This document shows positions 1-13,468 of a stretch of DNA of 64,000 bases, one piece after another (the first letter of the stretch is position 1; each line of letters starts with the position of its first letter). Below the pieces are notes generated by a model, which saw only the letters and a list, made by a program, of their open reading frames with translations, did not search any database and was not told the DNA's origin. This stretch comes from an uncultured Bariatricus sp. GTDB lineage: Bacteria > Bacillota > Clostridia > Lachnospirales > Lachnospiraceae. The stretch is taken from the NCBI GenBank assembly GCA_934307065.1, contig CAKRCD010000004.1, forward strand, positions 1 to 64,000. The letters run 5' to 3'. The translations under genes and the position numbers were made by a program.

Positions 1-30
1 AATTATATAGAGAAAATCAGAAAAAAGGAA

Positions 31-70
31 GCTGCCGCTTCACGATTTAGAAATCGTTAAAGCGACAGCC
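31..70 (-). terminator. Intrinsic terminator after the nitrogenase-like operon
   Basis: A long imperfect hairpin is seen: the arm GCTGCCGCTT plus CACGATTT pairs with AAATCGTT plus AAGCGACAGC across a two-base loop. Read on the minus strand it lies just after the DUF4091 stop codon and is followed by a T-rich tract (TTCCTTTTTTC). It would end transcription of the nif-like/DUF4091 operon. Confidence 0.8.
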
Positions 71-82
71 CCTTTTCTTTTA

Positions 83-1747
83 TTACTTTTCCGTTACTAA
101 TTTCTGAATTTCTTTATTCACTCGATTTCGAAGATTTATTAAGTACATATCAGATTTTGGATAACGCTTGAATGTCAATGGTTCATCCAAATCTCCTTCT
201 ATTAATTCCATAACATGTTCTTTACTTGTCAGACTTTCTAATAACTCTAACGCACGTAAATCTGTCAGCGCCTCATAATGAACCATCATACGAATGGATT
301 CTTCCGGATGTCCATCCGCTCCCGGATACACAAGGAATGGATCACCTGCCGGGAAACCATTTCCTGCATCCGTTACCTGATACGGGTTAATATGTTCATA
401 GGAATGCTGTGTATTGTAGAAATTATAGCCCCAATGCAAAATACCTATAATATCATATTTATAAAGCTGTACACCATAAATACGGTTTCTTGCTGACGGC
501 ATTGACATAAACCGATTACTTACCTCATAGAACTGGCCTGTACAATAATAGGTCCACATTTCTGTCAGTCCATGCTCCAAAAATTCTTCAATTTCGTTAT
601 TGCCAGGAATTGGCTTACTTATCAATCCATGCTTATAAAATTCATAGCTGGAAAGTGCATCAAACGTATGGAATCCATCCAGCATATTGCCCAAAGATTC
701 TTTCGCAGCCTTAAAGGTTTCTAAATGCACTTCTCTTGGTTCATCCGAAATATGGAAATATGTAACATCCGCTATTTCCCATTCTTTCAATTTTTCTACC
801 AGTTTCGGCAGGAACGCTTCCAAAAACTTTGTATATTCTCCTACTGCCGGTGTATGCCATCCAAAAATCCTTTCCTCTTTACCATCTACCATAGCTACAA
901 CTTTTGGAGCATACTTAGCACCCCACTGTGAAAACAGATGAGACATTTCATAGTATTCGATTCCACAAGCTTTACACAAATCAATCCAACGCTTCATTTT
1001 ATCAAAGCCAAAATAGTACTCTCCACCTTTCACTTCTACATCAATAAGCTGTGTGGTTGTTCGATCATTTCCTAAAGCCATATCAAGAGGATAGGTGAAA
1101 AGTGGAACAAGCATCATATTGCAACCTCTGTCTACATATTCGTGGAAATAATTTTCCAGCAATGTCCAATGCTCCTCTGAAAATACATCCACCTTGTAAT
1201 AATCAGCCAAACAGTCTGCATGAAACCATTCTGTATGCATAATTTTTTGTTTCGGAAGCGTATAGCCAATAACTATAATTTTTCTGGCTGCAGAACAAAT
1301 TACCTCTTCCTCTTTTACAAGTTGTATCTCAATCTCATATTCTCCTGCCGGAATCTCTTCTGTCAACTTTACATCCACCCACAAACTGCTCCACTGATGA
1401 GAACGGATAATCACTTTATTATCCTTTAAATCCCGTAATAAATCAGGATACAACCCTGCTGTAGTCTTCAAATAATTGTCATCCACAATTCCATTTGTTG
1501 CACGTCCCACCGGAACTTCTTCCACCATTCTGACGCGAATATGATCCGCAATCGGTGATACCACTTTCACATCCACACGTTCCCGCATAAAATGTTTACC
1601 AGTATATGCCACCTGATAAGATACAGTCTCTCCCCACAGTCCACTAAGTTTTACGCATTCTGGTCTATATATAGGCTCTTCATCTGCAAAAACCTTCTCC
1701 AATGAACTTAGTACTTTCATCTGATATTTGTTTTCTTCACCAAACAT
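83..1747 (-). CDS. DUF4091 / GH123-like glycosidase-family protein
   Basis: A 554-residue protein without a signal peptide, so probably cytoplasmic. The N-terminal ~170 residues look beta-rich. A barrel-type domain follows, containing FHISDEP near residue 334, which matches the Asp-Glu pair used by GH123 hexosaminidases. The C-terminal motif YPGADGHPEESIR is typical of DUF4091 proteins. The start is supported by GAGAGGG about 8 bases upstream. It begins only 19 bases after the NifH-like gene, so it is probably the last gene of that operon. What a glycosidase-like enzyme does beside a nitrogenase-like reductase is unclear; it may release the reduced substrate from a glycoside. The family call is firm, the substrate unknown. 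Confidence 0.8.
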   Translation of the reverse strand: MFGEENKYQMKVLSSLEKVFADEEPIYRPECVKLSGLWGETVSYQVAYTGKHFMRERVDVKVVSPIADHIRVRMVEEVPVGRATNGIVDDNYLKTTAGLYPDLLRDLKDNKVIIRSHQWSSLWVDVKLTEEIPAGEYEIEIQLVKEEEVICSAARKIIVIGYTLPKQKIMHTEWFHADCLADYYKVDVFSEEHWTLLENYFHEYVDRGCNMMLVPLFTYPLDMALGNDRTTTQLIDVEVKGGEYYFGFDKMKRWIDLCKACGIEYYEMSHLFSQWGAKYAPKVVAMVDGKEERIFGWHTPAVGEYTKFLEAFLPKLVEKLKEWEIADVTYFHISDEPREVHLETFKAAKESLGNMLDGFHTFDALSSYEFYKHGLISKPIPGNNEIEEFLEHGLTEMWTYYCTGQFYEVSNRFMSMPSARNRIYGVQLYKYDIIGILHWGYNFYNTQHSYEHINPYQVTDAGNGFPAGDPFLVYPGADGHPEESIRMMVHYEALTDLRALELLESLTSKEHVMELIEGDLDEPLTFKRYPKSDMYLINLRNRVNKEIQKLVTEK

Positions 1748-1766
1748 TATTTTTTCCCTCTCTTTT

Positions 1767-2513
1767 CTATTCTTCTACCAGCTTTCTGGCAATTTCCATA
1801 ATTGTTTTTGAAATTGGAAGTTCTGGATTTCCCTGAATCACTGTCTGATTCTGATTCTCATAAAACTGTACTGCCGGGTCTCGTGGCACATCTCCTATAA
1901 TATCAAGATCTGCTTCTTCTGCCATCTTACGCACCAATTCTGCTTCATTTTCCGCATTTCTCCGGTTCATAATAATCCCTTTCACCGAAGCATAACCTCT
2001 GTCTTTAAAATTATCTACTGCCATACAGATATTTCTTGCTGCAAATAATGCCATCTTTTCTCCTGAAGTGACAATCAAAACTTCATCCGCATAACCATCC
2101 CTAATCGGAGCAGAAAATCCTCCACACACCACATCTCCCAATACGTCAAACAATACAAAATCCGGTTTATATATCTCAAAAGCGTCCAACTCTTCCAATA
2201 AATTCAGAGTTGCAATGATTCCACGTCCTGCACATCCAATTCCTGGCGTTGGTCCTCCGGCTTCTACGCAATAAACTCCATTAAATCCCTGCTTTACAAT
2301 GTCTTCCAGTTCTGGTGGCTCTTCATTTTCATTTAAATAAGACATAACCGATGTAACTAGCTCTCCGTCTAGCAAATTCGAAGTAGAATCTGCTTTGGGG
2401 TCACACCCTATTTGCATTACCTTATATCCCATTCCTGCTATAGCCGCAGCCAATGAACTGGTTATGGTTGATTTTCCAATTCCGCCTTTTCCATATATTG
2501 CATATTTTTTCAT
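1767..2513 (-). CDS. NifH-like ATP-dependent reductase (iron protein)
   Basis: 248 residues. The deviant P-loop GKGGIGKST (residues 8-16) and switch motif CDPKADST (37-44) are intact. The two cysteines that bridge a [4Fe-4S] cluster between subunits are present at C94 (GIGCAGRG) and C130 (VVCGGFS). It should therefore be a homodimeric ATP-driven electron donor to the two component-1 homologues just upstream. It starts one base after the stop of the NifK-like gene, with AAAGGAG as ribosome site. It is shorter than true NifH (about 275-295 residues). With no nifB, nifE or nifN nearby it most likely serves a nitrogenase-like enzyme (as in the DPOR, CfbCD or Mar families), not N2 fixation. Confidence 0.92.
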   Translation of the reverse strand: MKKYAIYGKGGIGKSTITSSLAAAIAGMGYKVMQIGCDPKADSTSNLLDGELVTSVMSYLNENEEPPELEDIVKQGFNGVYCVEAGGPTPGIGCAGRGIIATLNLLEELDAFEIYKPDFVLFDVLGDVVCGGFSAPIRDGYADEVLIVTSGEKMALFAARNICMAVDNFKDRGYASVKGIIMNRRNAENEAELVRKMAEEADLDIIGDVPRDPAVQFYENQNQTVIQGNPELPISKTIMEIARKLVEE

Positions 2514-2514
2514 T

Positions 2515-3720
2515 TTAACTCGTCTCCTTTAAAACTGATTTTAAATACATGCTGCCTTTTTCAGCAAATAAATTCTTGCTTTGTGTCAAATACAATAAAC
2601 TGGATACTGCGATATGTGGAAATTCTACTTTATTTTTCGGTTCATACGGAAACAACTGAAAACACAGTGGGTCCGCTATTACCAAATCATATTGCTCCCG
2701 TTTTTTCAGTAGCTCTACCAGAACAGCTTCTTCACTTATTTCAAAATCTCCTTCTGCTTTTAACAACTTGTCCATTTTAAAGAAAGATGCCACATCAACT
2801 TTCCCATATTGAAACTCTTCTTCCAATACCTGCCTTAAAGAACATGCTGTCATCTGCTCCCCAATTACAAGTGCTTTTTTCCCTTCTTTATCTCCTTGCG
2901 AACCTTCATAAATACAAATAGAATCGCTTTTTCCATTTAAAATACTCTTTATCCTATTCAACCATTTGTTGGTCTGCATTTTTCCAATAGGATATCCAAT
3001 AATATACGGTGTTCCATACCGTTTATGTAACTCTTTCACCGCTTTAATTGCAGATACAGAAACTGCGATATTCAGCTTTGCACCTGCAGCACCTGCAATC
3101 TCTTCCAGTCTTCCGTTAGCACCCCACACAACAGGCTTCTTGACCCCGGCCTCCTTTAATAACTTGATACAATCGTCGATTTGATGATAATCCCACATAT
3201 CAATGGATGTTGCACCAATAACATTTACATCTCCAATTGTATGAGCATCCTCATCCACAAATGTATCAATCAAAGCTTTATAAGCTTTCTCCTGCCCTGC
3301 ATCGTAATGCTCCCATCCATTGGTTTCTACTCCCAACGCTGGAAGAAGATGAGCACTTAACCCATTCTTATAAATATCAGCAGCAATTTCCCTGCCAATA
3401 CCATTCAAATCAGAACCAATCACTGCCGCAACTGGCGTTCCAATTAATCCAATAAATTTACCACCAGTCTCTTCATATGTTCTTAATGCATCTTTCTTCA
3501 GTTTTCGGTCAATTCCCATGACAACTTGTTTTTCACGTAAAGATGCCGAGAAGATTTTTCTGTCTTCATTACCGCCCTTTGGTTCTTCCCCAAACAAAAA
3601 ACCTGCCATACAAGCCCCTGCATCACAAAAAATTATCATTCCATCCAGTTCATGCAAAACCCCCGCAGCACCAGAATAGTCCCCTGCAAATGAACCAATC
3701 TTTTGAAATAGCCGTGCCAC
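2515..3720 (-). CDS. Nitrogenase component-1-like protein, NifK/BchB-side
   Basis: 401 residues from a GTG start at 3720, chosen because AAGGAGG sits 7 bases before it and it lies two bases after the previous stop; an upstream TTG frame would include the ribosome site. The sequence has the component-1 fold signature VIGSDLNGIG (matching VIGDDL of NifK) and a cysteine in FCDAGACMAGF at the position of the second NifK P-cluster ligand. The third NifK ligand is replaced (IGTPVAAVIG), and the N-terminal extension carrying the first is missing. It probably forms a heterotetramer with the 457-residue partner upstream. Substrate unknown. Confidence 0.85.
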   Translation of the reverse strand: MARLFQKIGSFAGDYSGAAGVLHELDGMIIFCDAGACMAGFLFGEEPKGGNEDRKIFSASLREKQVVMGIDRKLKKDALRTYEETGGKFIGLIGTPVAAVIGSDLNGIGREIAADIYKNGLSAHLLPALGVETNGWEHYDAGQEKAYKALIDTFVDEDAHTIGDVNVIGATSIDMWDYHQIDDCIKLLKEAGVKKPVVWGANGRLEEIAGAAGAKLNIAVSVSAIKAVKELHKRYGTPYIIGYPIGKMQTNKWLNRIKSILNGKSDSICIYEGSQGDKEGKKALVIGEQMTACSLRQVLEEEFQYGKVDVASFFKMDKLLKAEGDFEISEEAVLVELLKKREQYDLVIADPLCFQLFPYEPKNKVEFPHIAVSSLLYLTQSKNLFAEKGSMYLKSVLKETS

Positions 3721-3722
3721 TT

Positions 3723-5096
3723 CTATACCTCCTTCGGATAAGTTTTCCAACTTCTTTCAAATACCATATTTTCCTCTTTCTTCTGATTCTGCCTTTGTGC
3801 CGTACCACTATTCTTACCTTGCAGCTGCAATAACAACTGATCTGCAACTTTCTTAAAAGTCAGAAAATCATAAGGTTCTTCCGACAAATTTACCAGCAAA
3901 ATTCCTTCCACATTTTTAACAAAGGAAAAACTTCCGCACAATAAAACATCTGCCACTTCCGGATTCTGTATAAAATTCCGCATACTAATATCAGGTGCCA
4001 GATATACATGAGTAGTTGGACTGTTTTTTAACATCTCCTCATAATATAGCAAATCTGCTTTCTGGAACTTATCCACAAACACATATTTTACCTCAATCCC
4101 CAATGCTGCTAAATCGCATGCAGCCTTAATCGGAACATAATCCAACCTCTGTCCAATCGCAAAGCTCTTACCTTCTGCTGCCTTTCGAACCTCAGCAGCC
4201 TTCTTTAATGCTTCCTGATATAACTCTTCTATATCCAAATTGCAATTCAATCTTCGTTCCAGTTCCTCATAATTGTTCTTAATTGAATCGGGATTCATGC
4301 ACTCATTCCAAAAGAAATAAGGAATTCCATACTTCTTCTCCATCATCTTTGCTGCATATAGATTAAATTCACTAAGAACAATATTCAGACACGCTTCTCC
4401 CATTTCATCAAAATCACTCAAGCTTTTACACTCTCTGATCTCTCGCACCTCATAACCGGCCTTTCGCAGCACATTGTAAAAATCTGTGGTACTGTCTGGA
4501 ATCTCTATTCTTCCGAGTAAATTGATTAATTTCTTTTTCGGTTTATTTACGTCTGCTTCAATCAGACTATACACCATTTCCACAAACATATCTGTATGCT
4601 TTATCGTATTATCCGCAAGTATCGGAAACATTTCCACAACACCAAACCGAATCCCATATTGTTTCTTCAGCCATTTCTTAAGGGCTGTATAATCCGAATG
4701 AATCAGACTGTCTACGCAGGTAACCGTAATTGTAAGCACCTTTGGCATCGTCTTCTGATTCTCCAACAAATTCACAATACATTCTTTCAATACATCTGCA
4801 ACCTTACCTCCTACAATTTCTTTTTCTGTCAAAAACAGACTGTAGACATTTTCAGTATATCCATTTAATTTTAAGTCAAAATCACAATGTCTGACACATG
4901 CAAGCGGTGCCACTATAATGTGTATCGATTCAGGAACAAACTTTGCCGTTCTGGACAATCCACCCATACCACGTTCTCCCGCACCATAACATCGGAAACC
5001 TTCTCTCTGAAATCTGACTTTTTCCGTTGAATCAGGTCTTTCCTTCTTCAAATATTCACATATCTCATTTAATGTAAAAACTTTAATTTTCTCCAT
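3723..5096 (-). CDS. Nitrogenase component-1-like protein, NifD/BchN-side
   Basis: 457 residues, first gene of the nif-like operon. Three cysteines fall where NifD/BchN bind the P- or NB-cluster: C36 (GFRCYGAGERG), C67 (APLACVRHC, also C71) and C127 (TVTCVDSLIHSD). The spacing and the GAGERG and HSDY contexts fit the nitrogenase component-1 superfamily. Ligands for a FeMo-type cofactor are not recognisable, and the typical NifD C-terminal motifs are absent. The last ~25 residues are polar and rich in Gln, Lys and Glu. It is preceded by AAGGAAC and a candidate promoter at 5132. It most likely pairs with the next gene product as the catalytic component of a nitrogenase-like reductase. Confidence 0.87.
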   Translation of the reverse strand: MEKIKVFTLNEICEYLKKERPDSTEKVRFQREGFRCYGAGERGMGGLSRTAKFVPESIHIIVAPLACVRHCDFDLKLNGYTENVYSLFLTEKEIVGGKVADVLKECIVNLLENQKTMPKVLTITVTCVDSLIHSDYTALKKWLKKQYGIRFGVVEMFPILADNTIKHTDMFVEMVYSLIEADVNKPKKKLINLLGRIEIPDSTTDFYNVLRKAGYEVREIRECKSLSDFDEMGEACLNIVLSEFNLYAAKMMEKKYGIPYFFWNECMNPDSIKNNYEELERRLNCNLDIEELYQEALKKAAEVRKAAEGKSFAIGQRLDYVPIKAACDLAALGIEVKYVFVDKFQKADLLYYEEMLKNSPTTHVYLAPDISMRNFIQNPEVADVLLCGSFSFVKNVEGILLVNLSEEPYDFLTFKKVADQLLLQLQGKNSGTAQRQNQKKEENMVFERSWKTYPKEV

Positions 5097-5114
5097 TTTT
5101 CGTTCCTTAATTAG

Positions 5115-5137
5115 TATAGATATTCTATATAATTATA
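5115..5137 (-). promoter_or_regulatory. Candidate promoter and palindrome of the nif-like operon
   Basis: On the minus strand a TATAAT (5132-5137) lies about 36 bases before the NifD-like start codon. Just downstream of it, toward the gene, is a perfect palindrome TATAGA-TAT-TCTATA (5115-5129). I see no good -35 box, which would suit an activator-dependent promoter. The palindrome could be an operator. Confidence 0.45.
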
Positions 5138-5336
5138 CCATTTTATCCCCATCTCGCATAATCGCTATTATCTATATATTATCCTATTTATTTATTTTTT
5201 CTATGAGTGTTGTGCTATTCACAGCCTTTTATTTATTTTTCTCGAAAAATATCGGAATTTATCGTAATTCACACAAGCCAAAAGAATTGTGGTATGCTTG
5301 CCAAAATCAATGTTCTAACAAAAGATTCGCGGGCAT

Positions 5337-5759
5337 TTGGAGCTGTTAAAACCCATAAATATGTGGTATGATAAATATAACAATATCGCTCGCAGAACTA
5401 AGAAAGGCGAAATGGTTTCCGATGATGAGATGGTTCTTCAGTGGATGGAATTCTTTAGTTGTAAGACACAGGAGGATTTTGAAACTATGGCAAAACAGGA
5501 TGAATATATGGAAGAAGCTGTAAATACCTTATTTAAGCTGAGTGCAGACGAACAAAAACGAGTGGACTACGAAGCAAGGGAAAAGGCAATCAGAGATGAC
5601 AGAGCCAAACTTAACTGGGCAACGAAAGTCGGATTTGATGAAGGTTTGGCTATGGCCGGCAAGATTGTTCGATTAAAATTAGCCGGAAAGACGCTGGAAG
5701 AGATTTCCACTGCCTGTGACTTACCATTGGAACAAGTGAAAGAAATTTTAGGTGAATAA
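5337..5759 (+). pseudogene. C-terminal remnant of an Rpn-type PD-(D/E)XK nuclease
   Basis: About 140 residues can be read, ending in the helical tail typical of the Rpn / PD-(D/E)XK transposase family: a run like LSADEQKRVDYEAREKAIRD, then GFDEGLAMAGKIV and a short HTH-like end. The N-terminal nuclease core is missing. An in-frame stop occurs at 5316-5318, and the only start (TTG, 5337) has no ribosome site. It is oriented against its neighbours and sits between the nif-like operon and the enolase gene. I read it as a decayed gene. A related, apparently intact copy begins at the right edge of the window. Confidence 0.75.
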
Positions 5760-5817
5760 TATCTATTAATTGGGGCTTTTCCCTAGGTTCAAACTTTAAA
5801 GCACTATAGAAAAACAA

Positions 5818-5858
5818 GGGCTGATACTTTAACAAATAAAATCTTAAAGTACCAGCCC
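5818..5858. terminator. Bidirectional terminator between the Rpn remnant and the enolase gene
   Basis: Arms GGGCTGATACTTTAA and TTAAAGTACCAGCCC pair with one mismatch around an 11-base loop. On the minus strand the hairpin is followed by TTGTTTTTC, so it should end the enolase-superfamily transcript. Confidence 0.8.
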
Positions 5859-5871
5859 CATTAATTATCTT

Positions 5872-7059
5872 CTACAACGTAACCGTTGTTTTCATTGTTG
5901 CGTTTTCAAATACGAAATCACTGAATTCGTTTCCGATTCCCGGAAGTTCCGGAACGGTAAAGTATCCGTCTACCGGCTGATAATCGTATTTGCATAAGCG
6001 TTTATTATAATCATAACGATTGTACACATGATGTTCATGTATGGTAAAATTCGGAATTGCTGCTTCCAGATGCAGGGATGCTGCTGTAAGAAGCGGGCTT
6101 GAGCATACATGAATCTGTACCCCTACATCATAAATATGAGCAAGGTCACACACTTTCTTTGTCTCTGTAATTCCACCGCAGTTTCCGATGTCCGGCTGAA
6201 TCATCTGGATGGAGCCATCTTCAAAATATGGAGCATATCCCCATCTTGTGTAAATACGCTCGCCCTGGGCGATTGGCATATTCAGATGATCGTGTACATA
6301 CTTGTTCATCTTCGGATTCGGTGTACATGGTTCTTCAAAGCAGAAAATGTTATATTTTTCTGCAAGACATCCAAGCTGAACAGCTACCTGTGCATCAATG
6401 TAAGAATGATTTTCCATAATAATATCTACATCCGGTCCTACTGCCTCACGGACTGCTGCAAGACGGTTAATTACCATATTTACATACTTTGGAGGAAGCA
6501 GTCTTGTGGTATCTTCATGGTTCAGTCTTCTTCCTTCTTCGTCAAATGTGAAGAAATCAATCTTAATCGCATCGTAACCTTCCGCAACTGCTTTTTTCGC
6601 ATTATTTACATAATCTTCAATCGTAATGGCTGGAGTCTTCTTTTCTCCCCATCCAAACTGAAGCTGGCTGGCATAACATCTTAATTGATCGCGAACCTTT
6701 CCGCCAAGTAACTGATAGAGCGGAACATTGAAATATTTCCCTTTGATATCCCACAGAGCAACATCAAGTGCTGAAATTGCTGAGAAAATAACAGGGCCGC
6801 CATTCTGTCCCCAGAATGTTTCTTTATATAACGTTTCCCAGATGAATTCTGTCTGAAGCGGGTCCATTCCTACAATCTTATGCGCAAAATCTACAATTGT
6901 ACTGAATGCACCTGTGGAACCACTGCCATAAGCCATTGCAGCTTCTCCATCGCCGTAGATTCCTGCATCTGTGTATACACGGCATAAAACCGGCTTCCAT
7001 GTCTTATTGTCTTCCGGCTTTAAATCCATAATCATAACATCTACTTTTGTAATCTTCAT
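5872..7059 (-). CDS. Enolase-superfamily (galactonate/mannonate dehydratase-like) enzyme
   Basis: 395 residues from the ATG at 7059, which has GGAGG 10 bases upstream; the longer frame to 7101 would overlap the permease. The mandelate-racemase fold is clear, with a lid-forming N-terminal domain and a barrel. Likely active-site residues are K166/D168 (IKID), E216 with H218 (MENHSY), E242 (FEEP), E267 (GER) and H317 (QIHVCSSP). This is the acid-sugar dehydratase pattern, Mg-dependent removal of water from an aldonate-type acid. It follows the permease by 26 bases and ends at a strong terminator. The exact substrate cannot be told. It may act on the compound imported by the adjacent ABC system. 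Confidence 0.87.
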   Translation of the reverse strand: MKITKVDVMIMDLKPEDNKTWKPVLCRVYTDAGIYGDGEAAMAYGSGSTGAFSTIVDFAHKIVGMDPLQTEFIWETLYKETFWGQNGGPVIFSAISALDVALWDIKGKYFNVPLYQLLGGKVRDQLRCYASQLQFGWGEKKTPAITIEDYVNNAKKAVAEGYDAIKIDFFTFDEEGRRLNHEDTTRLLPPKYVNMVINRLAAVREAVGPDVDIIMENHSYIDAQVAVQLGCLAEKYNIFCFEEPCTPNPKMNKYVHDHLNMPIAQGERIYTRWGYAPYFEDGSIQMIQPDIGNCGGITETKKVCDLAHIYDVGVQIHVCSSPLLTAASLHLEAAIPNFTIHEHHVYNRYDYNKRLCKYDYQPVDGYFTVPELPGIGNEFSDFVFENATMKTTVTL

Positions 7060-7085
7060 TATCGTCTTGCCTCCATCATTTTCTG

Positions 7086-7847
7086 TTAATTCAAAGTCCA
7101 TCTCAGAATGCGGTTTTTCACTTTTTCAAATAACTGCATTACAATAACCAATACTACAACCATGAAAATAAATCCGCTCCATGCTTCACTGTAAAGTCCA
7201 TATTCAGCGAATTTCTTTACATAGTAGCCCATGCCATACTTCGCACCATACATTTCTGCATATACAAGTACTACGAAAGAACCTCTGAGTGAGTTGATAA
7301 ATCCTGACATAATAGACGGCATAGCCGCAGGTAGGATTACCTGAAACATTTTTTCAACCGGATTTAATTCCAACGTTTTCGCTTTATCAAGAAACACCTT
7401 ATCAATCGTCATAATACCAGTGATTGTGGCAAATAATGTTGCCCAGATTGTATTATATACCACCAGGAACAAAGAAGCTGTTCTGAAGTTCGGTGCCATA
7501 AGCAGTGCAAATGGTGACATCAGAATCGAAGGAATGACACTGATGGAATATACAACCGGATATACAACCTTCCGGATTTTCTTATGCATACCAAGAATCG
7601 TTCCGCCTACAATGGCAATGGCTGCTGCAATGACAATTGCCGGAATCATAAGTTGGAAGGAATAAAACATATTTAAGAAAAGGGTTCCTATGTTATCCCG
7701 GAATGAGCCGGCCACTTTACTTACTGATGGAAAGAGATATCCACCAAAAAGCTGGTTATCTGCGATATATTTATACCCTAAAAACATAGCTAAATAAATA
7801 CAAACCGTTATCCAATAATCTTTAATAAATTTTAAAACTTTTTGCAT
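7086..7847 (-). CDS. SsuC/TauC-type ABC transporter permease
   Basis: 253 residues with about six membrane segments and the binding-protein-dependent permease (EAA) loop around AKTLELNPVEKMFQVILPAAMPSI, which docks on the ATPase. I start it at the ATG at 7847, because ATGGAGG upstream is the ribosome site itself. It belongs to the nitrate/sulfonate/taurine permease family. It follows the substrate-binding lipoprotein after a partial terminator, and precedes the enolase enzyme by 26 bases. Confidence 0.9.
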   Translation of the reverse strand: MQKVLKFIKDYWITVCIYLAMFLGYKYIADNQLFGGYLFPSVSKVAGSFRDNIGTLFLNMFYSFQLMIPAIVIAAAIAIVGGTILGMHKKIRKVVYPVVYSISVIPSILMSPFALLMAPNFRTASLFLVVYNTIWATLFATITGIMTIDKVFLDKAKTLELNPVEKMFQVILPAAMPSIMSGFINSLRGSFVVLVYAEMYGAKYGMGYYVKKFAEYGLYSEAWSGFIFMVVVLVIVMQLFEKVKNRILRWTLN

Positions 7848-7876
7848 AGATACCTCCATTTAAAATACATTCTCAT

Positions 7877-7919
7877 AAAAAACCCAATTCCGCAGCGTAA
7901 ACGGCGGAACTGAGTTTTT
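7877..7919 (-). terminator. Hairpin between the binding-protein and permease genes
   Basis: AAAAACTCAGTTCCGCC pairs with GCGGAATTGGGTTTTTT on the minus strand. Such hairpins after substrate-binding-protein genes commonly protect the upstream message and allow only partial read-through, giving excess binding protein over permease. Confidence 0.8.
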
Positions 7920-7932
7920 ATCCTGTTACTGA

Positions 7933-9036
7933 TTATTGGTCGTTTTCTTCGAAGAATTTAACTCTTCCATCGTAGAAATCCGGATCTTCATCACGATATT
8001 CAGCTACACATTCATCAAGAGCTTCTTTGTAAAGTTCTGTATTAATGTGGTCTTCAATGTTAATGCCTTTTGCATCATTTTCGTCAATGAATCCCATTTT
8101 AATCATGCCTTCCCATGTTTTGATTACAGAATTCTTACATGGGTCTACACTTGAAACATAGTTTTCATTTAACAGATATGCTGCAACATAGTCTTCATCT
8201 GCACCGATTTCTTTTGCAAGAATAGATACACATTCTTCTTTGTTAGCAAGGTACCACTGTTCTGCACGAATAAGAGCTTTCAAAAGAAGTTTTACTGTAG
8301 TTGGGTTCTTCTTTACAAAGTCTGTGTTCATGTTCATACGGCAGCATCCATAGTTTGGAACAAGGTCATCTAACCATGCTTTGATTTCGATTTCATCGTT
8401 ATTTCCTACTGTAAATAACTGGTCTCCACTAAGTACTGCATAATCAGCTTCGCCGGCAACAACTGCTGCAAGACGGTCACTGTTTGTGCTGTATGTAAGC
8501 CATTCAACATCTGTCTGTGGGTCAATTCCTGCATCAAGTAATGCCATACCTACAACCGGATGGATACCTGCATATGCGAATTTGCTTCCCTTTAAGCTTG
8601 TAACATCTTTATAATTTGTATCTTTCTTTCCAATGATATACATACCTTTCAGCATATATCCACCGACGATTGTGAAATCAGAACCTGTGGAAATGAACTG
8701 AAGTGGGTTGTTTGTTCCCTGGTTTGAAGTCACATCAAGCTGTCCGGCCTGGAGTGCCTGGAGTGCTGCTGTTGAAGATTCCACCGGATCTTCTACTACA
8801 TTGATTCCTACTTCATCGAAGTAGCCCTGCTGTTTTGCAATTGTAACAAGGATGTTTCCACTGTTTGCTCTTCCCCAGTGAACAGTATCCACTTCCGGAG
8901 TTTCCTTGTTATCTGTGTTGTCTGTTGTTTCCGTTTTTGTTTCTTCTTTTTTATCGTCAGATGAGCTTCCGCCGCATGCTGCAAGGCTGAAAGTCATTGC
9001 TGCTACAAGAAGAAGTGCAAGCATTCTCTTTTTCAT
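7933..9036 (-). CDS. SsuA/TauA-type substrate-binding lipoprotein
   Basis: 367 residues. A lipoprotein signal peptide ends in the lipobox LAAC (C21), followed by a Ser/Asp/Lys/Glu/Thr linker of about 30 residues. The mature part is an NMT1/THI5-like (SsuA/TauA) periplasmic-binding-protein fold, with GYFDEVGINV and ALQAGQLDVTSN being characteristic. It should capture a small anionic organic compound outside the membrane and pass it to the permease. The C-terminal ~60 residues are unusually acidic. Family members bind sulfonates, nitrate, pyrimidine precursors and aromatic acids, so the ligand cannot be named. It is flanked by a hairpin on each side. Confidence 0.9.
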   Translation of the reverse strand: MKKRMLALLLVAAMTFSLAACGGSSSDDKKEETKTETTDNTDNKETPEVDTVHWGRANSGNILVTIAKQQGYFDEVGINVVEDPVESSTAALQALQAGQLDVTSNQGTNNPLQFISTGSDFTIVGGYMLKGMYIIGKKDTNYKDVTSLKGSKFAYAGIHPVVGMALLDAGIDPQTDVEWLTYSTNSDRLAAVVAGEADYAVLSGDQLFTVGNNDEIEIKAWLDDLVPNYGCCRMNMNTDFVKKNPTTVKLLLKALIRAEQWYLANKEECVSILAKEIGADEDYVAAYLLNENYVSSVDPCKNSVIKTWEGMIKMGFIDENDAKGINIEDHINTELYKEALDECVAEYRDEDPDFYDGRVKFFEENDQ

Positions 9037-9080
9037 AATCTTTCTCCTTATAATAATATTGATTTGGTTGATAGTTTATT

Positions 9081-9106
9081 TGCAAATAGATTTCTCTATG
9101 TTTGCA
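9081..9106 (-). promoter_or_regulatory. Inverted repeat between ATPase and binding-protein genes
   Basis: TGCAAATAGA and TCTATGTTTGCA form an imperfect inverted repeat with a short loop, 45-70 bases upstream of the lipoprotein start codon. There is no U-tract, so it is more likely an operator or a message-processing hairpin than a terminator. Confidence 0.4.
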
Positions 9107-9115
9107 CGTTTTTCA

Positions 9116-9910
9116 TTACTGTACTTTGCGTACATGCGCTTCTACATCTTTATTGATATAACGAAGCAATTCATTTCGAAGTTTAATAGAATCCGCATCT
9201 TCAAAACGGTTTTCTCTTGTTGTCCGTTTCTCATCCGGAATTTTTACATCAAAGATGACATTACTTGGCGACTGTCCAAGCACAATGATTCGGTTCGCCA
9301 GAAGCATAGCCTCATCTACATCGTGTGTTACAAAAAATACCGTTTTCTTTTCTTCCTGCTTCTCCCAGAGTTCAAGCACCATATCCTGGAGCATGGAACG
9401 TGTTACCGCATCCAATGCCCCGAAAGGCTCATCCATGAGAAGGATCGGAGGGTCAATTCCGAAAGCACCTGCTATAGCACATCTTTGTTTCATACCACCG
9501 GAAAGTTCTTTCGGGAATTTGCGATACACAGACTCATCAAGACCTACCGCTTTCAGTAATTCCAAAGTTCTTTCTTTCAGATGACTCTTATCCCAGTCCG
9601 GAAACTTTTTTTTCAGTGCCAGCATAATGTTTGCACCTGCTGTTTTCCAAGGGAACAATCCATAATCCTGAAATACGACTCCACGCTCTAAGCTTGCACC
9701 GGTTATCTTCTGTCCATCCACTGTGATTTCACCGGTTGTACATGTTTCCAGTCCGGCAATCAACCGCAGTAACGTACTCTTTCCACATCCGGACTGTCCC
9801 AGGATACAGACAAACTCTCCACCTTCTACATCCACATTGATATCCTTCAGAATCAACTTATCACTTCCGGTATAAGCAAACGAAACATCATGGATTTTTA
9901 TATCATGCAT
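9116..9910 (-). CDS. SsuB/TauB-type ABC transporter ATPase
   Basis: 264 residues from the ATG at 9910, preceded by AAGGGAGGAGCC. Walker A GQSGCGKST, Q-loop VFQDYGLFPW, signature LSGGMKQR, Walker B ILLMDEPFGALD and the switch histidine (FVTHDVDEA) are all present, so it should be an active ATPase. It is the first gene of the importer operon (ATPase, binding protein, permease, enolase). It is separated from the upstream regulators by a terminator at 10101-10134, and a palindrome at 10061 is a possible operator for it. Confidence 0.92.
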   Translation of the reverse strand: MHDIKIHDVSFAYTGSDKLILKDINVDVEGGEFVCILGQSGCGKSTLLRLIAGLETCTTGEITVDGQKITGASLERGVVFQDYGLFPWKTAGANIMLALKKKFPDWDKSHLKERTLELLKAVGLDESVYRKFPKELSGGMKQRCAIAGAFGIDPPILLMDEPFGALDAVTRSMLQDMVLELWEKQEEKKTVFFVTHDVDEAMLLANRIIVLGQSPSNVIFDVKIPDEKRTTRENRFEDADSIKLRNELLRYINKDVEAHVRKVQ

Positions 9911-10060
9911 TTTGGCTCCTCCCTTTTCCATCATTTCTGCAACATTCTTATCATACAATTTTCGACCATTTTTTCATCGTACAAAAATGACAAATTCAAT
10001 TTTCGCCATGTAACAATTTGCATATTTTCTATAAGTAAATCGTATTTATTCATTTTGTCT

Positions 10061-10074
10061 ATAGCAAATGCTAT
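10061..10074. promoter_or_regulatory. 14-bp palindrome upstream of the importer operon
   Basis: ATAGCA-AA-TGCTAT is a perfect inverted repeat about 150 bases upstream of the ATPase start and just beyond the terminator of the upstream regulator gene. It is a candidate binding site for one of the two PucR-type regulators encoded next door. No convincing -35/-10 pair was found here. Confidence 0.4.
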
Positions 10075-10100
10075 TCCTGTAAATCTTCCCTCTATATAGG

Positions 10101-10134
10101 AAAAGAACCGGAAGATTATTCTCCCGGTCCTTTT
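10101..10134 (-). terminator. Terminator after the dehydratase-PucR fusion gene
   Basis: AAAAGGACCGGG and CCGGTTCTTTT form a GC-rich hairpin 14 bases after the stop codon on the minus strand, and the final TTTTCC forms the U-tract. It separates the regulator pair from the importer operon. Confidence 0.85.
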
Positions 10135-10147
10135 CTAAAGGTGGTCC

Positions 10148-12301
10148 TTATCTATTTTTATTCACTGCTATCCGTTCAAACTGCATGGCACGAAGCAACC
10201 GCTGGCTTTCCATGTACCCTTTCTCATCCAAATGAATTAACTCATTAATCCGTGCCAGCCGGTATAATAGGGTATTCCGGTGAATCTTCATCTTGGCTGC
10301 TGCCTGCATGGTATTTCTCTCTGCTTCAAGATAATAGTAAAGCGTCTCATATAAATTACTTTTCTTTTGCTCATCTTCTTCCCGGATAAGCCGGAGCTCT
10401 TCCACTCCCCCGTCCATCTCTGCAATTTCTGCTTTCATGGAAGTCATCAGAAGCTCCTGATAAAAATATTCTATCTGATAAATATTTGTATCCGGTTCCC
10501 ATTCTTCCCCAATTTCCATCAGCATTTGTACTACTTTCTCATTCTCACTCTTTTGAGAAAGCTTTGAAAATCCATTTCCAATGGCAACTTTCACATCAAT
10601 GTCTAACTGCTCATAGATATCCTTACATTTTACAATCAGGTTATCACGGTATTCCTTTCCTGAAATATCCGAAAGCAGATAATGCTGATAGATACCATCC
10701 TCTATTTCCTGCATAACCCGGAAATTCCGGCGCAATTCTTCTCTGAATGGTTTGGATTTTCCATCATCCTTCAGTACAATCCAAAGATAATCCGGGCGTT
10801 CCTCACTCTTAGGAGCTGCTTGTAAACTGGTAGAAGAAATTGCACAATACTTTCCAATAATCTCTGCAATCTGTTCTGCTTTCATCCTCAATCGATGATT
10901 CTTCGGAAATGCAGTACAGACTGCTCCGATTTCCGGCAATTCAAACCGCACCTGCTTGTTTTCATGCCCTTCGACGTTCTCCATGCCAATCATACAGAGC
11001 ACTTTACCAAAGGCATCTTCAATCTTCATCGGTATTTTTGTGTAAGCATATAACTGTTCCAAAGCCTCATCAGCCGGAGTTGCCAGATTGGAAAACAGTA
11101 TCTTGTAACAGTTATTAATATCAATCTTTGCATCTCCTGCCTGATTATCGTATATCATCTCGATGAGTGCCGCTACTCTTGTAGAAATCTGTGCATAATC
11201 CTCTTTCGAATAATCCGTGTCAATGGAAAGATATGGAAGTCCCTTTTCCTCTGTCACAAACTGTTGGATATATACAGCTTCCGCTCCCGTAGCATGGCAG
11301 CCGGACAAAATCATCTCCACTACACCATCTACATGATACTCATCTATAATTCTTCCTATCAATTCAATACGGTTATCGTTCGGAGTCATGATGGAACAGC
11401 CTGTAGATAAATATCTTCTTGCAATAGCTCCATAAATATCCGGGTCATCCTCATCAATCATACGATCCAAAGTCTTGACCCCACTACAGTTTTCCACGGC
11501 TACAACAACACCGCCATTTTCCTCAATGGCCTGAATAACTTTCAGACTGTCTCCGCCCATCGGACACCCTGTCACCAGAATCCTTGGTCTTGACTCTAGC
11601 ATTTTACCCTGATGATATTCTTCTAAAATCCGGTCCGTAATCGCATCCACAACTGCCGGAGTCGTCTTGAAATCAAACCGGTACTTGGAACCAGATACGA
11701 TTTTTTGAATATCACCGCCAAGCACCGGAGCAGGCTCCAGTTTCATCACTTCGCAAAGTCTGAGCAGTGACTTTCGGATTTCATTGCCGAGATGGATTGC
11801 TTCCTTTATTTTCTCCTCTGTGATAATCGTCTGAAAGAAATCTTCAAAATATTCTTTCGTCCGGATTACTTCACTTCTCCAGAACTCCATCGATACTTGG
11901 GACTGTGAATTAGGAAGTTCCATTACAAATACCGGTTTAAATTCTGCAAGCATCTCATACATTTTCTTCTTTCCGTCACAGGTTGTCTCACCTATAATCA
12001 AATCGGAAAAATGAAAAAAAGGACATTTATCAGATATAGCAAATCCGTAGCTTGATTTTACCAACGGACACATACTTTTCGGCATCTTCTGCTCAGCCGC
12101 TGGAATCGTCTCATTGGAAAATGAACAAAGCCCCACTGGGATTGCGCCCACTGCCATTGCCAGTTCCGTTGGAAAATATGCACAATACATTCCAACCACC
12201 GGCACACCCTTTTCCTTATATTCTTTAATTTCAATAAATGCCTTTCTCCGTTGCTCACCGAATTCTTCAAAAACCTCCGGTAAATCCTGAACTAATTTCA
12301 T
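10148..12301 (-). CDS. 2-hydroxyacyl-CoA dehydratase-like domain fused to a PucR-type regulator
   Basis: 717 residues in one frame. Residues ~1-370 match the 2-hydroxyacyl-CoA dehydratase (HgdB/FldB/BcrB) family: MYCAYFPTELAMAVGAIPVG, CPLVKS, DKCPFFHFSDLIIGETTCDGKK (in two parts) and LSGCHATGAE. Cysteines at 40, 59, 78, 93 and 108 could hold an iron-sulfur cluster. Residues ~390-717 resemble the neighbouring PucR regulator, beginning with DINNCYKILF and ending in the PucR helix-turn-helix (AAAKMKIHRNTLLYRLARIN). No activator ATPase for dehydration is nearby. I infer a transcription factor whose sensor is a dehydratase-like iron-sulfur domain. Its ATG directly abuts the upstream gene's stop, implying coupled translation. 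Confidence 0.85.
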   Translation of the reverse strand: MKLVQDLPEVFEEFGEQRRKAFIEIKEYKEKGVPVVGMYCAYFPTELAMAVGAIPVGLCSFSNETIPAAEQKMPKSMCPLVKSSYGFAISDKCPFFHFSDLIIGETTCDGKKKMYEMLAEFKPVFVMELPNSQSQVSMEFWRSEVIRTKEYFEDFFQTIITEEKIKEAIHLGNEIRKSLLRLCEVMKLEPAPVLGGDIQKIVSGSKYRFDFKTTPAVVDAITDRILEEYHQGKMLESRPRILVTGCPMGGDSLKVIQAIEENGGVVVAVENCSGVKTLDRMIDEDDPDIYGAIARRYLSTGCSIMTPNDNRIELIGRIIDEYHVDGVVEMILSGCHATGAEAVYIQQFVTEEKGLPYLSIDTDYSKEDYAQISTRVAALIEMIYDNQAGDAKIDINNCYKILFSNLATPADEALEQLYAYTKIPMKIEDAFGKVLCMIGMENVEGHENKQVRFELPEIGAVCTAFPKNHRLRMKAEQIAEIIGKYCAISSTSLQAAPKSEERPDYLWIVLKDDGKSKPFREELRRNFRVMQEIEDGIYQHYLLSDISGKEYRDNLIVKCKDIYEQLDIDVKVAIGNGFSKLSQKSENEKVVQMLMEIGEEWEPDTNIYQIEYFYQELLMTSMKAEIAEMDGGVEELRLIREEDEQKKSNLYETLYYYLEAERNTMQAAAKMKIHRNTLLYRLARINELIHLDEKGYMESQRLLRAMQFERIAVNKNR

Positions 12302-13468
12302 CTATTCAACCCTTCTTCCATCTGTACGGGCAAAGCTGTTCATCATCATTAAAGCCAGAAGCTCCTCTGATTTCTTTACATCTTCAATATCGTCTCCAAT
12401 CAACTCCCGAATCTTCTTTAATCTATATATCAGCGTATTCCGATGAATATGCAGTGCATTCGCAGTCTCTACTACATTATGTGCACATAAAAAATACATC
12501 TTTAACGTTTCATATAACTCTGTATTTTTTTCTGCATCTTCCTGCTGGAGAATCTGAAGAGAATAATCTTTGATTCCTGCTGCCGCAAGCACCGGATATG
12601 CATAGGTGTAAACAGTCTCCGCTCTCCATTCACTTTCCAGCATCATATTATCTGCCTTGTCATATTCATCAAGAGAATCTATCCGTTTCAGCCATTTTAC
12701 TTTCTTGTGACAATTCTCAATATCCTGAAAAAGAATACTTACGCAGCACGGCACCTGCACTTCCTTTTTCAGGCGGTCCAAAATCAATTTTTCCTCTTTT
12801 TTATTCTCTATCTGATAAAACAGCACCCACGTTTCTGCTTCTTCCCCCAGGATATAAGCTTTATTCCATATCTCACGGATTTTACACACCAGACCTGTCA
12901 AATCACTTTCCGGAAAATAAACCATTAAATAGCCTTTCTTGATTTCATTGGAAAGATATTTCAGATTCATTCCTTCATTGCCACAGAAAATATCATGTGT
13001 AATCAGTCTCTTTCTCATAGGAAGTAATCCTTTTGGCTGATAGCCGTGAGTTGTCCAGTAATTCGCCACAATCGGAACCAGCATATCTGCAACTGTCCCA
13101 TACTCCTCCCAGACATCCGGACTTAATGCATTGAAAATAATGACACTATATCCGCATAATTTTCCATTCACTTCAATCCGTTTTGCCACTGCCATATGCT
13201 GTCTGCCAAACCGATAAAAATCGGGGGTTTCCTTTACTCTGCGCTTCAGCACATAATCATATGCTTTCGCTGTAAATTGCTTTGTTCTTACTTTTTGGAA
13301 TTTTCTGCCCGGCATTGCACTGGAATAGAACGGGATTTCACCATCGACATTCAAAACTAAAACGGAGGCGCCGATGAAATCACGTACTTTTTCTGTCATG
13401 CCTTCAAGACTTCTGTTTTCAAATAATGCTTCAAATGCAATTTTATAACATGCATTGACATCAATCAT
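12302..13468 (-). CDS. PucR-family transcriptional regulator
   Basis: 388 residues. The C-terminal helix-turn-helix of the PucR type is clear (ETANALHIHRNTLIYRLKKI). The N-terminal ~130 residues look like a small-molecule sensor fold (VLVLNVDGEIPFYSS). The middle is a GGDEF-like or PucR linker region without clear catalytic residues. Its first residues, MIDVNACYKIAF, recur inside the fused protein encoded next (DINNCYKILF), so the two are paralogues. It is the first gene of the regulator pair and probably controls the importer, enolase and nif-like operons. GGGGGAGG precedes the start. Confidence 0.85.
   Translation of the reverse strand: MIDVNACYKIAFEALFENRSLEGMTEKVRDFIGASVLVLNVDGEIPFYSSAMPGRKFQKVRTKQFTAKAYDYVLKRRVKETPDFYRFGRQHMAVAKRIEVNGKLCGYSVIIFNALSPDVWEEYGTVADMLVPIVANYWTTHGYQPKGLLPMRKRLITHDIFCGNEGMNLKYLSNEIKKGYLMVYFPESDLTGLVCKIREIWNKAYILGEEAETWVLFYQIENKKEEKLILDRLKKEVQVPCCVSILFQDIENCHKKVKWLKRIDSLDEYDKADNMMLESEWRAETVYTYAYPVLAAAGIKDYSLQILQQEDAEKNTELYETLKMYFLCAHNVVETANALHIHRNTLIYRLKKIRELIGDDIEDVKKSEELLALMMMNSFARTDGRRVE

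Follow-up and report, generated by a model that had tools for sequence, protein, structure and literature searches.

The stretch of DNA analysed here (the window: 64,000 nucleotides of contig CAKRCD010000004.1 from an uncultured Bariatricus sp., Lachnospiraceae) carries a four-gene unit in which a nitrogenase-like trio, encoding a D-like and a K-like component-1 subunit and an H-like ATPase, is followed by a glycoside hydrolase gene of family GH123. Judged by sequence, the trio belongs to a broad clade from anaerobes that is neither Nif nor BchNB and matches no characterised enzyme, with Isr and Mar standing outside the sequence comparison. Our preferred reading, to which we give a little less than an even chance, is that the trio is an ATP-driven nitrogenase-like reductase serving a glycoside-using locus, with a single [4Fe-4S] cluster per D-K half. 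The kind of enzyme is already known; what is new is the joining of a nitrogenase-like reductase to a glycoside hydrolase.

The D-like gene comes first (3723..5096, minus strand; 457 amino acids (aa)), followed on the same strand by the K-like gene (2515..3720; about 401 aa), the gene of the H-like, NifH-type ATPase/reductase (1767..2513; 248 aa) and the GH123 gene (83..1747; 554 aa), at gaps of 2 bp, 1 bp and 19 bp. The first gap assumes that K starts at GTG 3720; the list of open reading frames gave TTG 3750 (411 aa), and GTG 3720, with AAGGAGG just 5' of it and in agreement with the start of most homologues, is probably the better placed of the two. A hairpin after the GH123 gene (20..82, minus strand; −32.5 kcal/mol, z −9.2, equal stability in 0 of 200 shuffles) is a probable intrinsic terminator by fold energy and terminator scan. 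D, K, H and GH123 form one four-gene unit, of which the trio makes up the first three genes. Pfam matches of H (Fer4_NifH, 295 bits), K and D (Oxidored_nitro, 114 and 93 bits) all lie well above cut-off. A first-pass annotation of this DNA had described D-like, K-like and H-like genes in tight order with 2-bp and 1-bp gaps and intact ATPase and [4Fe-4S] motifs in H, and this description was borne out with the GTG start of K and with the P-loop GKGGIGKST (residue 8), Cys94 in a CAGRG context and Cys130 in a CGGF context of H. The three genes that it took for the operon are real, but the fourth, GH123, had been overlooked.

Nitrogenase NifDK holds six P-cluster cysteines, three per subunit, and Cys275 of its D subunit is a ligand of the iron-molybdenum cofactor (FeMo-co). 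In the window, D has two of the three P-cluster cysteines, Cys67 and Cys127, at the positions of NifD Cys88 and Cys154 (conserved in 51 of 51 D rows), and an off-register third, Cys36, which the alignment places near NifD Cys62 and which is conserved in 22 of the 27 rows of alignment A1; Cys223 is invariant in the same alignment. K retains one of the three: Cys47 (411-aa numbering), its sole cluster-type cysteine, which aligns with NifD Cys88 and with the ligand Asp of BchB. Cys47 and Asp24 occur in all 50 K rows, as does a Pro at the Cys154 position, and in the Cys62 region, where the register is unsure, Asp24 is preceded by Pro, Ala, Gly or Ser23 and never by Arg. At the Cys275 column both window subunits carry Ser, and Cys appears in 1 of 51 D rows and 0 of 50 K rows. 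The AlphaFold model of K (pLDDT 83, pTM 0.85) reaches its top Z of 28–29 in VIA-align with DPOR subunit-B-type chains; Foldseek gives the best E-values to VnfK/NifK/NifE chains, ahead of BchB.

Judged by family cut-offs, cysteine pattern and the NifB status of relatives, the trio is not a NifDKH nitrogenase. All three proteins fall short of the nif cut-offs of NCBIfam, H scoring 307 bits for nifH (394 required) and 301 bits for CfbC (402 required). NifB was above cut-off in none of five relatives' genomes (G001–G004 and G406), four of which gave sub-threshold matches; the control genome G403 gave 354 bits. There is only one component-1 pair in G001, G003, G004 and G406, and G002 has more. The non-Nif character proposed by the first-pass annotation is upheld by these results, but the missing maturation genes that it had found odd are no oddity, because the cysteine ligand of FeMo-co is absent too. 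Nor was there the clustering with NifDKH and nifBEN elsewhere that it had named as evidence against its view, either in the trees described below or, for NifB and in relatives only, in the five genomes.

In a combined tree, D and K each form one branch, separate from NifD/E/K/N and BchN/B; this is a fasttree-only tree with long outgroup branches, which leaves unsettled where the clade belongs among Nif, Bch and Cfb, and a single archaeal homologue, presumed to be CfbD, stands in for that protein. A 45-row K tree (quick mode) likewise separates the clade from NifD/E/K and BchB, and both trees were built without Isr and Mar sequences. Of the known trios named by the first-pass annotation, the clade lies apart from all that could be placed, namely NifDK/EN, BchN/B and the presumed archaeal CfbD, with Mar and Isr outside the tree. 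Database searches returned 43 matches for D, 36 of them with 35–99% identity over 59–100% of the query, and 58 for K; with so many homologues, the operon is not a chance find. The relatives come from Lachnospiraceae, Oscillospiraceae and other anaerobes, and many records of the wider clade are from rumen or gut by title, which fits the gut-type anaerobe that had been proposed as host. With pyruvate carboxylase as a species marker, the top match among the best 120 of 7989 is 98% identical, and the nearest ones bearing an organism name, Coprococcus and Lachnospiraceae MAGs, reach 82–83%, in line with a Lachnospiraceae-like bacterium.

The close type is rare. Two short patterns taken from the K alignment picked out 65 loci in an 84,980-species collection, L001–L004 among them being close (40–62% identity), and a 4.26-Mb contig (G406) is an additional close carrier in the genus of L001's genome, where two of eight genomes were positive. 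The close type occurred in 1 of 397 genomes in a family survey, in 1 of 250 in an overlapping draw and in 1 of 3 and 1 of 24 in two genera, each time in the centre genome only; some clade member (E 1e-40) was present in 52 of the 397. In an order survey, 4 of 392 genomes passed E 1e-100, namely G406 and three looser relatives, two of which have FecBCD-type importers beside the trio. Among plasmids, the K query found nine records, one a true relative (Treponema saccharophilum pTS1) and eight partial matches (seven annotated nifE, one unannotated); the H query found 261, and the best 60 of these were mostly nifH or unannotated, with some bchL. No relative was found in the viral contigs searched. 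A PDB search with the D subunit of an archaeal trio gave only weak matches to MarD.

By homology, the fourth gene of the unit encodes a GH123 beta-N-acetylgalactosaminidase. It scores 365 bits with Pfam GH123_cat against a cut-off of 23.1, and its nearest solved protein is 8k2l (E 3e-160), a monosaccharide-releasing beta-N-acetylgalactosaminidase whose HVSDEP segment aligns with HISDEP of the window enzyme; the D-E of this SDEP motif we take to be the catalytic pair. By eye, no signal peptide is evident. In the quick K tree the window groups with G001, G002 and G406 in a single branch (SH-aLRT 99), and all four carry GH123, the relatives' copies being 83–90% identical to the window's, compared with mostly 55–66% for D and K. 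At the base rate of GH123 in the family (47 of 397 genomes above cut-off), four of four would be expected with p = 2e-4, a post hoc figure. GH123 lies about 2.5 kb upstream of D in G002, with two genes in between, and about 6 kb away from H in G406. In G001 the D-K contig stops just past K and a second contig stops inside GH123, as the gene order of the window predicts; its GH123 is then accompanied by the same importer and a URO-D-family gene. This importer, of oligosaccharide type (SBP_bac_1 and two permeases), occurs close to the trio or to GH123 in each of the three relatives. All three also have URO-D-family genes, of MtaA/MtbA type (NCBIfam) in G002 and G406 and weakly matched (60 bits) in G001. 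Both G002 and G406 have RACo and a small molybdenum (Mo) oxidoreductase with a ferredoxin-like partner.

Two side observations concern the same neighbourhoods. L001 (1127-2047) and L145 (14561-15436) share an unidentified gene of about 45% identity, which lies close to the trio in both G001 and G406; Pfam gives no match for the L145 copy, and neither copy resembles the Rpn-type piece of the window described below. In Lachnospiraceae, loci centred on GH123 (L153-L172, L146, L002 and L181) combine it with the oligosaccharide importer, and some add the Mo oxidoreductase with its ferredoxin-like partner, a MoeA-like gene (by eye), GNAT_C, a URO-D-family methyltransferase and a corrinoid protein. 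Among the matches listed in the open-licence literature, there was no description of these loci joining GH123 to corrinoid or Mo enzymes.

From the operon, protein families, residue pattern, single-chain folds and gene neighbourhoods observed here, we infer the cluster type, electron flow and subunit stoichiometry (by family membership and residues) and a link to glycoside breakdown (by gene order alone). Electrons, probably from ferredoxin, would reach an H dimer holding one [4Fe-4S] cluster, which would pass them at low potential and with ATP hydrolysis to a D-K tetramer. Each D-K half would hold one [4Fe-4S] cluster, with D Cys67, D Cys127, K Cys47 and probably D Cys36 as ligands, and would reduce a small organic substrate in the former FeMo-co cavity with no need for a carbide cofactor. 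The operon and neighbourhood of the subclade suggest that this substrate is most simply something arriving as a glycoside. It could enter through the oligosaccharide importer and lose an N-acetylhexosamine to the cytoplasmic GH123, and the reductase might then act on the freed aglycone or on a piece derived from it; the URO-D-family and Mo enzymes of some relatives would fit further processing of the same molecule. Glucosinolates and cyanogenic glycosides were considered as substrates and dropped for want of evidence. A broader proposal, which we regard as doubtful, would make this the first reductase of nitrogenase type devoted to the breakdown of glycosides; its clade, so far undescribed, would have one [4Fe-4S] site and a reduced cysteine set, with interchangeable ATP-binding cassette (ABC) importers making import-and-reduce units and a sister branch joining doubled trios to HypF/HypD/HypE and HydE/HydF.

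Several observations weigh against the trio being a reductase of a glycoside-using locus. The GH123-bearing subclade has four known members, and no sugar-type importer is visible in the window, which ends at the hairpin. None of the trio's genes was found in the other 20 GH123 loci examined in the family, some of them truncated at contig ends, which indicates that the glycoside module exists alone and that the reductase is at most an optional add-on. Eleven of these 20 trio-free loci have the substrate-binding protein and both permeases of the same type, five have the Mo oxidoreductase, and in G196, G267 and G322 the GH123 locus lacks the trio, yet a related K gene lies elsewhere in the genome. 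GH123 is missing from the genomes of the next relatives, L003 and L004; beside their trios are a LIV-type importer and a URO-D-family gene (L003) or Dpp- and Ssu-type importers, with SsuCAB-like genes directly after H (L004). The copy of Dorea SUG81 (L002, 8370-11251) may be decaying, since its D is N-terminally short (405 aa, with a late start directly after a ferredoxin-like gene and no Cys36) and no H adjoins it, the H genes being on other contigs. As for the cluster, the ligands are assigned by alignment and the structure models are single chains; Cys36 falls in a model region of low certainty and most of the clade lacks it (present in 3 of 51 D rows, with any nearby Cys in 17 of 51).

The trio could also be a genuine nitrogenase-like reductase of some other substrate that shares a variable carbohydrate island with GH123 by accident, an explanation that we consider unlikely. 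The 20 of 20 GH123 loci without the trio, the shifts of importer type over the clade (nine changes for seven groups in the K tree) and the piece of a transposase-type nuclease beside the window operon are all in line with it, but the placement of GH123 in the same operon at 19 bp, its higher conservation than that of D and K, and the grouping of the GH123-bearing members in one branch, with the post hoc chance figure given above, speak against it. Still less probable is a corrinoid or other tetrapyrrole as substrate, or a role of the trio as reductive activator of a corrinoid protein, comparable to DPOR, COR and CfbCD. The DPOR subunit-B-type chains at the top of the Z ranking of the K model point this way, although Foldseek puts VnfK/NifK/NifE chains over BchB. 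FecC-type permeases (three of three tested) score best against BtuC models, below cut-off, but none of this importer type was seen next to the window subclade. Near the trio there are a corrinoid protein, MtaA-type methyltransferases or RACo in L002 and G406, a corrinoid protein and an MtaA-like gene in L014 and a URO-D-family gene in L003; however, L002 and G406 already have a dedicated activator in RACo, and URO-D-family genes also stand beside GH123 in trio-free loci.

A sulfonate C-S reductase working like the isethionate reductase Isr and supplied by the SsuCAB-like importer is improbable. As in IsrD, going by the accessible part of the Isr paper, one subunit has just one cluster cysteine, with Pro at the Cys154 position, and SsuCAB-like genes follow H directly in L004 and are found 2 kb upstream in the window. 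But the window importer belongs to a separate operon, the SsuA-like proteins score 86 bits (window) and 150 bits (L004) against a cut-off of 163.5, and K has Asp24 preceded by Pro, Ala, Gly or Ser23, never Arg, in the Cys62 region. A radical SAM gene was seen neither in the window, by Pfam among the ten proteins of 83-12301 or by a CxxxCxxC motif in the open reading frames of at least 100 aa listed from 13 kb to the window end, nor by motif beside the trio in G406 and G004 (L145/L146 and L151), where one flag on an ABC ATPase is spurious; IsrB itself was not among the queries. Finally, a nitrogenase or a remnant of one, to which the likeness of H to NifH among solved proteins (closest relative at E 4e-70) might point, is already refuted on the features tested and has a negligible chance of being correct: every nif cut-off is missed, K has one of three P-cluster-type cysteines, Cys275 is in neither subunit, relatives have no NifB above cut-off, and the reading frames are intact and conserved.

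A wider survey of 90 loci, chosen by K similarity and not at random and including at least one duplicate (L018 is the contig of L138), divides the clade by partner genes. A FecB- or FecC-like importer gene is present in 23 of the 90, among them the remoter archaeal trios L147 and L148, and HypF or HypD in 47; no locus has both this importer gene and HypF/HypD, and 44 of the 47 HypF/HypD loci have two K genes. Of the loci without HypF/HypD, 42 have fewer than two K genes; an importer gene of at least 90 bits, most often of BtuC/FecC type, is present in 33 of these, the window being counted through its own Ssu-like genes. Most of the nine importer-free loci are on short or truncated contigs; L125 has 15 kb. 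The varied importer types suggest that the importer, and so probably the substrate, has been exchanged, and the window subclade reads as having changed partner, with GH123 in the window and the three relatives and, in the relatives, also the oligosaccharide importer and URO-D-family genes. The proposal that the reductase acts on an imported organic substrate is supported in part, by the conservation of importers beside the operon in relatives. Single trios with BtuC/FecC-type importers (L006, L009, L011-L016, L076, L129, L130, L133-L135, L137, L139, L176 and L177) come from Bacillota, Chloroflexota, a Treponema plasmid and Methanospirillum stamsii, and L176-L178 also have a divergent regulator-like gene, Crp/Fnr by eye. 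L007 and L010 combine the trio with a LysR regulator, an SBP_bac_3 importer and a DUF169 protein (L010 by similarity), with a formate/nitrite-family channel next in L007.

The sister branch with doubled, Hyp/Hyd-linked trios is the more startling find and lies outside the window. In L020 (2479-16305; Ruminococcus bicirculans 80/3) tandem trios in the order H-D-K-H-D-K are followed by HypF, HypD and HypE. Many loci among L017-L064 and L124-L141 likewise have doubled Hyp-linked trios, and HydF, a HydE-family radical SAM protein (577 bits in L020 against a cut-off of 255) or both often come first. By similarity to the L020 proteins, HypF, HypD and HypE are found together in 38 of the 90 loci, and HydF with the radical SAM protein in 16. 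The Hyp genes suggest an iron cyanide ligand in a nitrogenase-like system. L124, a Hyp-linked locus, has an 854-aa frame (8448, minus strand) that matches D at 378 bits and K at 407 bits and would encode a fused D-K subunit. Among the matches listed in the open-licence literature, there was no description of Hyp/Hyd genes with nitrogenase-like enzymes, nor of these loci in connection with importer-linked or gut/group IV nitrogenase-like enzymes. One paper that names both nitrogenase-like enzymes and HypD (PMC9431491) concerns, in its accessible part, an unrelated subject.

Upstream of the unit, the window holds the C-terminal piece of an Rpn/PD-(D/E)XK transposase-type nuclease (5337..5759, plus strand; PF12784 30 bits, TIGR01784 below cut-off), a probable mobile remnant. 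An enolase-superfamily gene (5872-7101) and an SsuC/SsuA/SsuB-like ABC importer (7086-7859, 7933-9036 and 9116-9958, minus strand), assigned by Pfam and NCBIfam, belong to an operon separate from the D-K-H-GH123 unit. Beyond them, a double-cubane-cluster reductase (10148-12301, minus strand; NCBIfam 492 bits, cut-off 350) is fused to a PucR-type DNA-binding domain and is possibly a redox-sensing regulator; a second gene (12302-13468) is weakly similar to it.

Many nitrogenase-like enzymes have no known reaction, and where the reaction has been solved it proved to be an unexpected reductive bond cleavage or ring reduction. The operon hints that ATP-driven nitrogenase-like reductases may help to break down imported glycosides, and the GalNAc-type hydrolase in the operon together with the oligosaccharide importer of relatives narrows the substrates that could be tested in gut-type anaerobes to a short list. 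In the wider clade, importer-linked single trios and doubled trios with Hyp/Hyd genes define families that could be assayed directly. Matches to NifH of this kind in gut metagenomes are probably no evidence of nitrogen fixation.

Compared with known systems, the window hydrolase is homologous over its full length to the GH123 beta-N-acetylgalactosaminidases of PDB 8k2l/8k2m and 8k2n and retains the catalytic SDEP segment; to our knowledge, none of the solved GH123 enzymes sits with reductases. CfbCD has a single catalytic subunit that forms a homodimer, in contrast to the two distinct, adjacent subunits of the window, L001-L004 and L145. In DPOR the cluster is held by three Cys of the N subunit and an Asp of B, and the trio resembles BchLNB in splitting its predicted ligands unevenly across the subunits, with one subunit giving a single ligand and the other most of them. 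However, K Cys47 replaces the BchB Asp in 50 of 50 rows, D matches two of the BchN cysteines, the trio scores far under the DPOR cut-offs and no chlorophyll genes were seen. Mar (MarBHDK) is, like the trio, a two-component nitrogenase-like reductase of an organic molecule, but the accessible part of its description (PMC12552129), by which alone and not by aligned Mar sequences the comparison is made, reports a P-cluster, an [Fe8S9C] cluster with Cys270/His429 and the NifB-like MarB; the trio has one K cluster cysteine, Ser at the Cys275 column (the counterpart of MarD Cys270) and no NifB above cut-off in relatives. The isethionate reductase IsrBHDK of Rhodobacter capsulatus, according to the accessible part of its paper (PMC11423573), has the gene order B-H-D-K and depends on the radical SAM protein IsrB, whose gene lies immediately upstream; three cysteines of IsrK align, IsrD has one cluster Cys and an Arg at the Cys62 position, and that part of the paper reports no GH123. 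The window differs in that its single-Cys subunit, K, is without Arg in the Cys62 region and in that the partner D has two cysteines plus Cys36, which is off the Cys62 position and absent in most of the clade. What it shares with Isr is an H protein with two component-1 subunits, one of them single-Cys with Pro at the Cys154 position, the lack of Cys275 and an Ssu-type importer in the neighbourhood.

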